Assembly (NCBI GenBank): GCA_005880985.1 | Contig: VBIQ01000015.1 | Location: 1 to 64,000, forward strand | Source of the DNA: Chloroflexota bacterium | GTDB taxonomy: Bacteria; Chloroflexota; Dormibacteria; Aeolococcales; Aeolococcaceae | DNA: 64,000 nucleotides | Direction: 5' to 3' | Shown: positions 7,966 through 15,156 of the stretch, piece by piece | Layout of the letters: each line of letters opens with the position of its first letter | Position numbering within the stretch: the first letter of the stretch is position 1 | Position numbers and translations under genes: made by a program | The notes under the pieces: model-generated | Database searches by the model: none | What the model was told of the DNA's origin: nothing | Seen by the model: the letters and a program-made list of their open reading frames with translations, nothing else

Positions 7966-9258
7966 CTAACGCCAGACGCGTTTCATGATCACCCGGGCCA
8001 GCTTGTCGGGGTCATGGTGGGTGGAGATCTGGTTGCTGACCACGTCGGCGAGGATGAAATGAAGGGGGCGTCGCGCCGCCCGGTCGCGGTCGAAGACGAC
8101 CCGGGCGATGCCGGCGTCGACCGCCGAACGCGGCAGCGGCAGGCCGTAGTTGCTGTTGCACACCACGTAGTCGAAGAGGCTCCCCCGGACGTGATCCTCG
8201 ATGGCGTCGAGGTGCTGACTGACGGTGAAGCCGGTGGTCTCGCCCGGCTGGGTGGCCACGTTACAGATGTACACCTTGACCGCGGGACTGGCACGAAGCG
8301 CCTCCACCATGCCCTCGACCAGCAGGTTGGGCAGGATCGAGGTGTAGAGCGAACCGGGGCCCATGATGATCAGCTCGGCCTCGAGAATGGCCAGCTCGGC
8401 CTCGGGGTTGATGGGCGGATCCGAGGGCTCGAGAAAGACGTGATCGATGGGCTCCTCGCCATGGGGAACCCGCGATTCCCCCACCCTCACCTCAGGGCCC
8501 GCGGTGGCGCAGAGAGTCACGTCCTGCAGCGTCGACGGAACGATCTGGCCGCGAACGGCCAGAACGCGTCCGGACTCGCGCAGGGCATGCTCGAAGTCGC
8601 CGGTGATCTCTGCCATGGCCATGATGAACAGGTTGCCGAAGGAGTGCCCCCCCAGCGAGCCCTCACCGGTGAAGCGATGGGTGAACAGCTCGGTCATCAG
8701 CGGCTCGGTCTCCGCCAGGGCGATCAGGCACTGGCGGAAGTCGCCGGGCGGCAGGACTCGGTACTCGGAGCGAAGCCGGCCGCTCGATCCCCCGTCGTCG
8801 GCGACGGTGACGATGGCGGCGAGGTTACCGGTGTACTTCTTGAGACCACGCAGCATGGTGCTCATCCCCGTCCCGCCGCCGATGGCGACGACGTGGGGAC
8901 CCTTGGCGAGGGCACGCCGCACGTAGAGCTGTTCGGCGAGACCGCGCTCACCGCCCGACCCGACCGGCAGGAACGGCCCGATGATCGACTTCCCCAGCTT
9001 GTAGAAGCTGAGCACCAGCAGCCCGATGCCGACCGCCGCGAACAGCAGAGCGCGGCCGCCACGGGGCAGGAACTGGAGGGTGAGCGGGCCCGCGATCGAC
9101 GGGAAGCGGACGCTGGTGTAGGCGTCCTTGAGCGCGTAGCCCACCGCCAGGCTGATCATCACGATGCTGCCGAAGAGCAGGGCCAGCCAGCGCTTGACGT
9201 AGAGCCCCGGGGTGAACCAGCGCCAGAGCTCGGGACTGACGCGGCGGAGGACTCGCAT
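7966..9258 (-). CDS. YvcK/CofD-like protein (gluconeogenesis factor family), membrane-anchored
   Basis: The 430-aa product starts with two hydrophobic segments (about residues 18-40 and 60-85) and continues with the YvcK/CofD fold. Motifs are VVAIGGGTGMSTMLRGLK, TVADDGGSSGRLR, LPPGDFRQCL and GHSFGNLF. YvcK binds UDP-sugars and is needed for cell-wall synthesis on gluconeogenic carbon in Bacillus and mycobacteria. The membrane anchor is an added feature. ATG 9258 lies 7 nt after GACAAT. It is codirectional with glpX upstream, consistent with gluconeogenesis. Confidence 0.88.
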   Translation of the reverse strand: MRVLRRVSPELWRWFTPGLYVKRWLALLFGSIVMISLAVGYALKDAYTSVRFPSIAGPLTLQFLPRGGRALLFAAVGIGLLVLSFYKLGKSIIGPFLPVGSGGERGLAEQLYVRRALAKGPHVVAIGGGTGMSTMLRGLKKYTGNLAAIVTVADDGGSSGRLRSEYRVLPPGDFRQCLIALAETEPLMTELFTHRFTGEGSLGGHSFGNLFIMAMAEITGDFEHALRESGRVLAVRGQIVPSTLQDVTLCATAGPEVRVGESRVPHGEEPIDHVFLEPSDPPINPEAELAILEAELIIMGPGSLYTSILPNLLVEGMVEALRASPAVKVYICNVATQPGETTGFTVSQHLDAIEDHVRGSLFDYVVCNSNYGLPLPRSAVDAGIARVVFDRDRAARRPLHFILADVVSNQISTHHDPDKLARVIMKRVWR

Positions 9259-12058: not shown

Positions 12059-12553
12059 TTGCGCGGCCGGGTCGTCTGCGTCCTCGCCATCATCGCCGCG
12101 ACCACGCTGCCCGGCTGCGGCTCGAGCTCGGCCTCTCTCGACACCCATAGCTCACCCGGCGGAGCCGTCCGCGGTTTCGTCAACGCCGTCCGAGCCGACC
12201 AGCTGGATGCGGCCCGGGAGTGGGTCGCCCCCGCCGGACGTGAGCAGTACGCAGCGTTCTTCCGGCAGGCCAAGCTGCTCGACCTGACCGTCCACTTCCG
12301 GGTCAGCGACTTCAGCGTGGTCAGCGAGCACGTCGAGCCCGATCATCCCGATCGCGCCCACGTCCTGACCCGCGGCGAGCTCGACGTCTGTGTCGACGGT
12401 CCGGCGCTCAGCGGCGCGACCTGCAGCCCCTTCCAGGGACCCGAGTCGGGAGTGGCCGCCAACGGCAGCAGCGACGACGACTACGTCTGCACCCGCGAGG
12501 GCGGGCGTTGGTACATCAGTATCGACGCCCCGCTGCCGCTGCCCGCGCAGTGA
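12059..12553 (+). CDS. Putative lipoprotein of unknown function
   Basis: A 164-aa protein with a short basic N-terminus, a hydrophobic segment and the lipobox LPGC around residue 17-20, so it should be lipid-anchored outside the membrane. The mature part has the form of a small NTF2-like or Cys-containing accessory domain (residues PGGAVRGFVNAVRADQLDAA). The family was not identified. The start is TTG 12059, 8 nt after the previous stop. Its stop overlaps the next start as GTGA, so it is coupled to the MgtE-N/CBS gene. Confidence 0.7.
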   Translation: MRGRVVCVLAIIAATTLPGCGSSSASLDTHSSPGGAVRGFVNAVRADQLDAAREWVAPAGREQYAAFFRQAKLLDLTVHFRVSDFSVVSEHVEPDHPDRAHVLTRGELDVCVDGPALSGATCSPFQGPESGVAANGSSDDDYVCTREGGRWYISIDAPLPLPAQ

Positions 12554-13803
12554 ATTTCCTCAGCGACTTCCTGCGGGCCGACGCCGTCGACGTGTATCAG
12601 AAGCCGGTCGGCACCGTGCGTGACCTGCTGGTGCGGATGCAGGAACCCTACCCGGTGGTCACCGCCGTGGCCCTGCGACGTCGCCCCGCCGGCGTGCCCG
12701 AGGTCATCGACTGGTCGACGGTGCGGGCCTGGGTGGACCGCGAGCTCAGCCTCAAGCTGGCTGCCGCGGCGCTGACCCCGTACCCCCGCGCGCAGGACGA
12801 CGTCTGGCTGTCACGCGACATCCTGGACAAGCAGATCGTCGACACCGACGGCCGCCGGCTGGTGCGGGTCAACGATCTGCAGCTGCAGGCGAGCGATCGG
12901 GATCTGCTGCTGGTGGGAGTCGACATCGGCGCCCGCGGACTTCTCCGACGGCTCAACGCCGAGCGCCTCGCACGCCGGCTGGCCCGGCTCGCCGGCGGCG
13001 ACTTTCCCCAGCGGCTGATCTCGTGGGACGCGGTCGACCCGGTGCAGGGCGACGCGCGCTCGATGCGGCTGCGCATCGCCCATGCCAAGCTGGCCAAGCT
13101 GCATCCCGCCGACATCGCCGAGATCGTCGGTCAGCTGGGTGGCAAGGATCGCGCCGCCATCTTCGCCAGCCTCGATGACGAGACCGCGGCCGACACGCTC
13201 GAGGAGTCGAGTGACGAGGTCCAGACCCAGATCCTGGCGCGGCTCGACGACGAACGGGCCGCCGACATCCTCGAGGCCATGGCGCCGGACGAGGCCGCCG
13301 ACCTGCTCGCCGACCTGCCCGAGGACCGGCGCGAGCAGCTCATCGCCAGCATGGACGAGGACGACGCCGAGGACGTCGAGGACCTGCTGGGATACGAGGA
13401 GGGCACCGCCGGCGGAATGATGACGCCGGACTTCGTGGCCATTCCCACCAGGCTCAGCGCGGAGGGCGCGATCGAGTACCTGCGGATGCGTAAACCCGAT
13501 GCGGAGACCATCTATTACCTGTACGTCAGCGACGATGACGGCAGGTTGATCGGTGTGCTCAGCCTGCGCGATCTCATCGTCGCCGACCCGCAGACGCCCG
13601 TCTCGGAGCTGATGATCATCCGGGTGATCACCGTCGAACCCGACACCCGCACCGCCGATGTGGCCGCGGTGCTCGCCAAGTACAACCTGCTGGCGGTGCC
13701 CGTCGTCGACGGTGAGCGGCGCATCCAGGGCATCGTCACCATCGATGACGCCCTCGACAAGGTGATGCCCGCCCGGCTGCGGCGCAAAGCGCGGGCACTG
13801 TGA
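12550..13803 (+). CDS. Pore-less MgtE-N / CBS-pair protein with a PRC-barrel-like N-terminus
   Basis: The 417-aa soluble protein starts at GTG 12550, overlapping the lipoprotein stop. Residues 1-170 look like two PRC-barrel-type halves (VYQKPVGTVRDLLVRM and DTDGRRLVRVNDLQL). An MgtE N-terminal superhelical domain follows (HPADIAEIVGQL, DDERAADILEAMAPDEAADLLADLP), then two CBS motifs (GTAGGMMTPDF to GRLIGVLSLRDLI, and VSELMIIRVITV to IQGIVTIDDAL). In true MgtE this cytosolic part senses Mg2+ and gates a five-helix pore, which is absent here. The NRAMP-like carrier begins 9 nt later and is the likely partner. Confidence 0.9.
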   Translation: MNFLSDFLRADAVDVYQKPVGTVRDLLVRMQEPYPVVTAVALRRRPAGVPEVIDWSTVRAWVDRELSLKLAAAALTPYPRAQDDVWLSRDILDKQIVDTDGRRLVRVNDLQLQASDRDLLLVGVDIGARGLLRRLNAERLARRLARLAGGDFPQRLISWDAVDPVQGDARSMRLRIAHAKLAKLHPADIAEIVGQLGGKDRAAIFASLDDETAADTLEESSDEVQTQILARLDDERAADILEAMAPDEAADLLADLPEDRREQLIASMDEDDAEDVEDLLGYEEGTAGGMMTPDFVAIPTRLSAEGAIEYLRMRKPDAETIYYLYVSDDDGRLIGVLSLRDLIVADPQTPVSELMIIRVITVEPDTRTADVAAVLAKYNLLAVPVVDGERRIQGIVTIDDALDKVMPARLRRKARAL

Positions 13804-13812
13804 GGCCTCGAA

Positions 13813-15156
13813 GTGCCGCCTCCGCCCCGGACGAGCGCGGTGCGCCGCGCGGCACGGGCGGTCACGCCCCGTAGACGCAGCGGCGCAACGGCGTCCTCGC
13901 GGCGCCGGGGAGGTCTGTGGCGCTATCTGGCGATTCTCGGCCCCGGGCTGATCGCCGCCAACGCCGGCAACGACGCCGGCGGAGTCTTCACCTACAGCAA
14001 CACCGGCGCCAAGTACGGGTTCAGCCTGCTGTGGACGGTGATCCCGACCCTGATCGCGCTGATCGTCGTCCAGGAGATGGTCGCCCGGCTCGGGGTGATG
14101 ACCGGCAAGGGTCTGATGGACCTGATCCGCGAACGGTTCGGGGTGGCCTGGACCCTGTTCGCCTCGCTGGTGGTCGTCGTCGCCAACGGTGGCACCACGC
14201 TCGCCGAGTTCGCCGGGGTTGCCGCCGCCCTCGGGTTGCTCGGCGTTCCCATCCCGGTTGCGGTGATCGGAGCCGCGCTGATGATCGGGGTGATCACCCT
14301 GCGCGGCAACCGGCGGCTAGTGGAGCGGATCTTCCTGGCGCTGGGCCTGGCGTTCGTCTCCTACATCATCACCGCCATCGCCGTGCATCCCGACTGGAGC
14401 GCGGTGGCACGCGACTCGGTGGTCCCCGGGTTGAATCCCCACGGCACCCCGACCAACGCCTACCTCGCCGACGTCATCGCCCTGCTCGGCACCTCGATCA
14501 CCCCGTACATGCAGCTCTATCTGCAGTCCTCGATCGTCGACAAGGGAACCACCGAGAAGGACTATCGCTACGTGGTCGCGGACGTGGTCAGCGGCTCGAT
14601 CTTCGCCGAGATGGTGGCGGCGTTCATCATCATCACCACCGGATCGACGCTGTTCCTGCACGGCGCCGCCGGCCAGGGAGTCGACAGCGCCCAGACGGCG
14701 GCCCAGGCGCTGGCCCCGCTGGCTGGCGCCCACGCGAGTCAACTCTTCGCCGTCGGGCTGCTGGGCGCGTCCCTGCTGGCGGCGGCGGTGCTGCCCCTGA
14801 GCACCGCCTTCGTGGTGTGCGAGGCGTTCGGCGCCGAGCGCAGCCTGCAGAACCGCTTCGCCGAGGCGCGGTTGTTCTTCACTCTGCTCATCGGTCTGCT
14901 TGTGCTGGGGGCGGGAATCATCCTCATCCCCAGAGTGCCGCTCGCCGGAGTTGCCATCGGCACCCAGACCCTCGACGGCATCCTGCTGCCGGTGCTGCTG
15001 GTATTCATCATCCTGCTGGCCAACGACCGGCGGTTGCTTGGCCGGCGGTGCAACGGTCGCATCTACAACACCGTCGCGGTCGCCCTGGCGACGCTGCTCG
15101 GCCTGCTGAGCCTCTTCCTTCTGGCGAGCACACTCTTCCCGTCACTGGTCCGCTGA
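13813..15156 (+). CDS. NRAMP-family divalent-metal carrier with an altered metal site (possible Mg2+ type)
   Basis: A 447-aa membrane protein with about 11 helices after a basic N-terminal tail. The Nramp framework is clear: GPGLIAANAGNDAGG in TM1 and ALLGTSITPYMQLYLQSS in TM6. Aligned with classical Nramps, DPGN reads DAGG, so the Asp is kept and the Asn lost, and the TM6 Met-Pro-His reads Thr-Pro-Tyr. Loss of the methionine is known from Nramp-related Mg2+ transporters, so Mg2+ or Mn2+ rather than Fe2+ is plausible. It lies directly behind the MgtE-N/CBS gene and its end overlaps the convergent pfkB-type gene by 15 nt. Confidence 0.88.
   Translation: MPPPPRTSAVRRAARAVTPRRRSGATASSRRRGGLWRYLAILGPGLIAANAGNDAGGVFTYSNTGAKYGFSLLWTVIPTLIALIVVQEMVARLGVMTGKGLMDLIRERFGVAWTLFASLVVVVANGGTTLAEFAGVAAALGLLGVPIPVAVIGAALMIGVITLRGNRRLVERIFLALGLAFVSYIITAIAVHPDWSAVARDSVVPGLNPHGTPTNAYLADVIALLGTSITPYMQLYLQSSIVDKGTTEKDYRYVVADVVSGSIFAEMVAAFIIITTGSTLFLHGAAGQGVDSAQTAAQALAPLAGAHASQLFAVGLLGASLLAAAVLPLSTAFVVCEAFGAERSLQNRFAEARLFFTLLIGLLVLGAGIILIPRVPLAGVAIGTQTLDGILLPVLLVFIILLANDRRLLGRRCNGRIYNTVAVALATLLGLLSLFLLASTLFPSLVR

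Follow-up and report, generated by a model that had tools for sequence, protein, structure and literature searches.

Two genes on the same strand, encoding a pore-less MgtE-type sensor protein and a carrier of the Nramp family, lie next to each other in the window, the 64,000-nucleotide stretch of Chloroflexota DNA analyzed here (Table 1). The sensor gene starts with GTG and ends with TGA, and exactly 9 bp (13804-13812) separate it from the carrier gene, the spacing given in the original prediction. The GTG start at 12550 was supported by the similar N-termini of related sensors, which open with MNYFSELLG, MLYLSQMMG or MFFLSKLLG where the window protein reads MNFLSDFLR. A glpX-type FBPase gene upstream and a convergent PfkB gene downstream were conserved neighbours of the pair. 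A small lipoprotein-like ORF further upstream (12059-12553), for which no Pfam match was obtained, shares its last 4 nt with the start of the sensor gene; this ORF was absent from the two family relatives examined, and an operon role for it was therefore rejected. No M-box was found between positions 8000 and 17000 of the window.

Table 1 Features of the sensor and carrier genes, in window coordinates
Feature	Position	Strand	Evidence or remark
Pore-less MgtE-type sensor protein, 417 aa	12550..13803	+	PRC-like barrels, MgtE_N, CBS pair, short basic tail
PRC-barrel match, sensor residues 88-127	12811..12930	+	Pfam, E=1.3e-5
MgtE_N, sensor residues 184-284	13099..13401	+	Pfam, E=9e-30
Sensor D215	13192..13194	+	Aligns with TtMgtE E59 (site Mg7); acidic in 89% of 121 sensors
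Sensor D247	13288..13290	+	Aligns with TtMgtE D91 (site Mg4); acidic in 92% of 121 sensors
Sensor D251	13300..13302	+	Aligns with TtMgtE D95 (site Mg6); acidic in 99% of 121 sensors
CBS pair, to sensor residue 405	13411..13764	+	Two Pfam CBS domains, E=1e-17
Sensor D400 and D403	13747..13758	+	Align with TtMgtE D247 (Mg4) and D250 (Mg5)
Short basic C-terminal tail MPARLRRKARAL	13765..13800	+	At the position of the MgtE plug helix and pore
NRMT-type carrier, 447 aa, Nramp fold	13813..15156	+	GTG start; Pfam Nramp (PF01566), E=4.9e-81
TM1 metal-site motif DAGG (DxxG), carrier residues 54-57	13972..13983	+	Alignment
TM6 metal-site motif GTSITPY (TxxT), carrier residues 226-232	14488..14508	+	Alignment

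All full-length sensors examined with Pfam contained PRC barrels, and the sensors of relatives showed two of them, near residues 1-66 and 85-127. The stop of the window sensor comes only 12 residues beyond its second CBS domain, and a proline-basic motif ended 44 of the 62 short sensor tails. The MgtE pore had been predicted to be missing from this protein, and its absence was confirmed: Pfam returned no match to the pore family (PF01769), and a strict scan for TM-like 19-mers, which flagged sensors of Coriobacteriia relatives only, gave no sign of a pore or TM segment in the window sensor, so that neither method uncovered an overlooked C-terminal TM domain. Its NCBIfam mgtE score of 190.4 also fell under the cut-off of 232.75. 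Sensors of the Collinsella/Olsenella type (L107-L112, L166) carried a C-terminal membrane extension of ~200 aa with neither a Pfam nor a PDB match, and the idea of an MgtE pore in these long extensions was rejected on this ground. Eggerthellaceae sensors had a single C-terminal TM helix.

The N-CBS part of the sensor matched the cytosolic domain of Thermus thermophilus MgtE (TtMgtE; PDB 2yvy/2zy9) with E=6e-46, and the modelled sensor fold agreed with Mg2+-bound TtMgtE at a TM-score of 0.83. Both proteins share the N domain, the CBS pair and most Mg2+-site acids, whereas the sensor lacks the plug helix and the pore, gains PRC-like barrels and has Leu in place of Phe227. Single Mg2+ sites of TtMgtE are disabled by mutations at D91/D247 (Mg4), D226/D250 (Mg5), D95 (Mg6) and E59 (Mg7) (PMC5882242). 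Five of these six mutation-tested cytosolic acids were kept in the window sensor; the remaining position, that of D226, holds N379 and was acidic in just 26% of 121 sensors. At the positions of TtMgtE D247 and D250, 92% and 81% of these sensors were acidic, and the mean acidity over all 51 aligned MgtE acids was 56%. The Mg2+-site positions were more conserved than the other MgtE acids, with a permutation p=0.007 that is indicative only, since positions were treated as independent and the sequences are related. F227 is the ATP-stacking residue of TtMgtE and is essential for ATP binding (PMC5529423). Its position is occupied by L380 in the window sensor and by Leu in 98 of the 121 sensors; among the other ATP-site residues, N203 was variable and R187 and Y170 were mostly kept. 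With the Mg2+-site acids mostly retained and the ATP site lost, the sensor module appears, from these residues, to be capable of binding Mg2+ but incapable of binding ATP in the manner known for TtMgtE, and the window sensor itself presumably binds Mg2+.

PRC barrels are known in assembly and docking proteins, for example RimM and reaction-centre subunit H, and a partner containing them might buffer Mg2+, or assist the carrier as a chaperone or assembly factor, without acting as a gate. Metal-chaperone activity was indeed raised as an alternative by Shin et al. (2014, PLoS Genet, PMC4072509). We consider this explanation quite improbable, as the sensors keep the very residues of the Mg2+ bridges that drive closure of MgtE, beyond general acidity, and as carriers were expressed and functional without the partner (PMC4072509, PMC8806188).

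Alignment of the window carrier with DraNramp and with EleNRMT of Eggerthella lenta (PDB 7qia) placed DAGG at the position of DPGN and GTSITPY at that of GATVMPH, and no intact DPGN or MPH occurred elsewhere in the protein. The NRMT signature has been defined as DxxG-TxxA/T (Ramanadane et al. 2022, eLife, PMC8806188), and the window carrier, reading DxxG-TxxT, carries it. The alignment and the published signature together showed that the original prediction had called these residues correctly, both in the change of the TM6 Met-Pro-His to Thr-Pro-Tyr and in the likeness to Nramp-related Mg2+ transporters. The TM1 Asp (D54) and the TM10 Gln were retained, and the metal-site Met, which favours transition metals, was replaced by Thr, leaving hard ligands only. 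EleNRMT was the best PDB match of the carrier (E=2.6e-95, compared with ~1e-27 for classical MntH structures), and the two proteins, 43% identical over the aligned part, share the DxxG-TxxA/T site, the Nramp fold (TM-score 0.93) and the loss of the TM6b proton-relay histidines, whose positions hold Tyr and Leu in the window carrier and Trp and Asn in EleNRMT. They differ at the Met position (Thr in the window carrier, Ala in EleNRMT) and after the proline (Tyr and Trp, respectively). Classical Nramp/MntH proteins such as DraNramp have the fold and the family (PF01566) in common with the window carrier, but their DPGN, MPH and proton-relay histidines are missing from it. Signature, sequence score and fold thus support placing the carrier in the NRMT (Mg2+) branch, and it probably transports Mg2+ in this organism.

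The gene pair recurred across genomes, a point on which the original prediction was open to checking. Among 151 genomes of the phylum, MgtE_N was encoded <4 kb from the carrier homologue in 42 of 67 close, 17 of 36 middle and 3 of 47 remote cases; the remote homologues sampled mostly read DPSG-TxxS. Chance adjacency was excluded by the difference between the close and middle groups (59/103) and the remote group (3/47; Fisher p=5e-10), against a chance expectation of ~0.25% per carrier. Some linkage misses corresponded to contig ends, and in one genome (G038) the sensor adjoins the carrier but is truncated. Gene order in the fetched pairs was sensor to carrier in 48, carrier to sensor in 8 and on opposite strands in 3, counts in which certain loci occur more than once and certain second carriers are included; the median sensor-to-carrier gap was ~16 nt. 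Furthermore, when named genomes were scanned with an alignment led by EleNRMT, 80 loci emerged, and in 68 of them the sensor and carrier genes were neighbours; one of these 68 (L135) shows the PRC part only. Of the 12 sensor-negative loci, at least L113 and L123 sit where the contig or locus ends. Represented were Actinomycetota, Chloroflexi, Bacillota, Acidobacteria, Desulfobacterota, Nitrospirae, Omnitrophota and others, with one archaeal MAG among them. The counts support a conserved pairing of sensor and carrier. Some carriers had no linked sensor, and some sensors stood alone. No natural sensor-carrier fusion was found among the homologues and loci surveyed; long open frames in G082, G130, G148 and G122 were rejected as fusions because they were overlapping frames in GC-rich DNA. 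Tandem duplicated NRMT carriers were seen beside one sensor gene at L094 and L040 (G075, G134).

An M-box Mg2+ riboswitch was found in 17 of 79 loci of the named-genome scan, upstream of the sensor in 13 and directly before a sensor-less carrier in four (L130, L140, L142 and L143), a pattern that would fit partial interchangeability of sensing by RNA and by protein. In Clostridium pascui (L143:528-1364), two fluoride riboswitches lay upstream of the M-box NRMT. The genome of the window contains exactly one M-box (C13:172425-172595, minus strand), just upstream of a second NRMT-type carrier (L042; G000:C13:170835-172595 including the M-box) that reads DAGG and GTTVAPW and has extra C-terminal TM segments. 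A second pore-less PRC/MgtE_N/CBS sensor is encoded at C10:26906-27214 (L044:4496-5764) with no carrier adjoining. In relatives, sensors of the C10 type adjoin carriers of the C13 kind, and by this comparison the C10 sensor may serve the C13 carrier in trans. A search of this 93%-complete genome for the MgtE pore, CorA and MgtA-type families gave no member of any of them, which leaves the two NRMTs as its only Mg2+ importers recognised across the families covered. A third Nramp-like carrier (L043; G000:C19:97588-98922) reads DPSG and GTTISPY and belongs to a group almost never linked to MgtE_N.

The existence of unlinked sensors, one of them in the window's own genome, could mean that the partner controls other targets, such as transcription or other membrane proteins, and that adjacency reflects shared Mg2+ regulation only; an M-box common to both genes would then explain their co-location. 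However, the pairs mostly have no M-box and are still adjacent, the sensor and carrier distances correlate (r=0.64 over 50 pairs, not corrected for the species tree), and Pfam detected no DNA-binding domain in the sensor. We therefore give this explanation very little weight.

The pairing itself has a published history. Shin et al. reported that most NrmT genes adjoin a gene for an MgtE N-terminal-like protein, with an M-box upstream of the pair in many species, and speculated that the MgtE-like fragment gives cytoplasmic feedback regulation (PMC4072509). As in the window, the MgtE-like gene lies upstream of the carrier; the window locus has no M-box, which is not a required feature. In that article the partner appears only as an MgtE N-terminal domain, to which the PRC barrels are an added detail. 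Since the same hypothesis and gene pair were published in 2014, the window pair is not a new system: it is real and coherent, and its pairing has been known since then. In the literature searched, from which subscription journals were largely absent, no later test of the MgtE-like partner on NrmT was found. The main text of the EleNRMT study contains neither 'operon' nor 'CBS', and a partner gene was apparently not discussed there (PMC8806188).

The published functional data bear on which metal the pair handles. The A. capsulatum NrmT, which has an adjacent MgtE-like protein, seemed to be mainly a Mn2+ transporter; its rescue was full for Mn2+ but, for Mg2+ uptake, limited to low millimolar Mg2+, and co-expression of the partner gave no better Mg2+ rescue than the carrier alone (PMC4072509). 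NRMT worked without a partner in B. subtilis complementation (PMC4072509), and EleNRMT, active in liposomes without a partner, carries both Mg2+ and Mn2+ (PMC8806188). Alternatively, Mn2+ or some other divalent metal might be the main substrate of the carrier, and the partner might respond to this metal instead of Mg2+; the A. capsulatum data, the Mn2+ transport by EleNRMT and the lack of an M-box at the window locus agree with this view. We regard it as unlikely: the Met-to-Thr change leaves only hard ligands in the window carrier, the genome's only other recognised Mg2+ importer is the M-box NRMT, and elsewhere the pair itself is placed under M-boxes.

The reading that we favour, with some confidence, is that the pair forms a Mg2+ uptake unit composed of an NRMT carrier and a separate MgtE-derived cytosolic sensor that adjusts it. 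The carrier would bring in Mg2+, perhaps Mn2+ too, and its cytosolic partner, descended from the regulatory portion of MgtE, would sense cytosolic Mg2+. At high Mg2+ the sensor module, in which the closing part is kept and the plug helix and pore are absent, would close; the closed sensor would change its contact with the cytosolic face of the carrier and lower import, most likely by closing the carrier. Both the contact and this direction of control are presumed, and docking through the basic tail, the PRC barrels or both would be a guess. When sensor and carrier were modelled with AF2 as a single read-through chain (29 in-frame paired rows), both halves folded well and the linker was disordered; the pTM of 0.69, with no interface score, does not demonstrate an interface. 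Speaking against the Mg2+ uptake unit are the A. capsulatum result, the partner-free activity of NRMTs, the unlinked genes, the lack of an M-box at the window locus, the failure to find a natural fusion, this AF2 outcome and N379. More tentatively, and with the balance leaning the other way, the Mg2+-sensing module of MgtE might be a free-standing, ATP-insensitive regulatory subunit of an unrelated LeuT-fold carrier, forming a widespread feedback-gated two-protein importer, with some genomes, such as that of the window, running a protein-sensed and an M-box-sensed NRMT side by side.

Beyond the published pairing, the present analysis adds the breadth count, the residue-level comparison of the Mg2+ and ATP sites, the PRC barrels, the arrangement of M-boxes and sensors, and a sensor gene beside an Eggerthella carrier near-identical to EleNRMT. 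If the sensor gates the carrier, a channel would have passed a regulatory module on to an unrelated carrier, and work on EleNRMT, the NRMT of known structure, would have left out its likely partner. The conserved residues and the Eggerthella gene pair make the role of the sensor, a question dating from 2014, directly testable: in Eggerthella sinensis (L096), the sensor gene lies directly upstream of a carrier 96% identical to EleNRMT.
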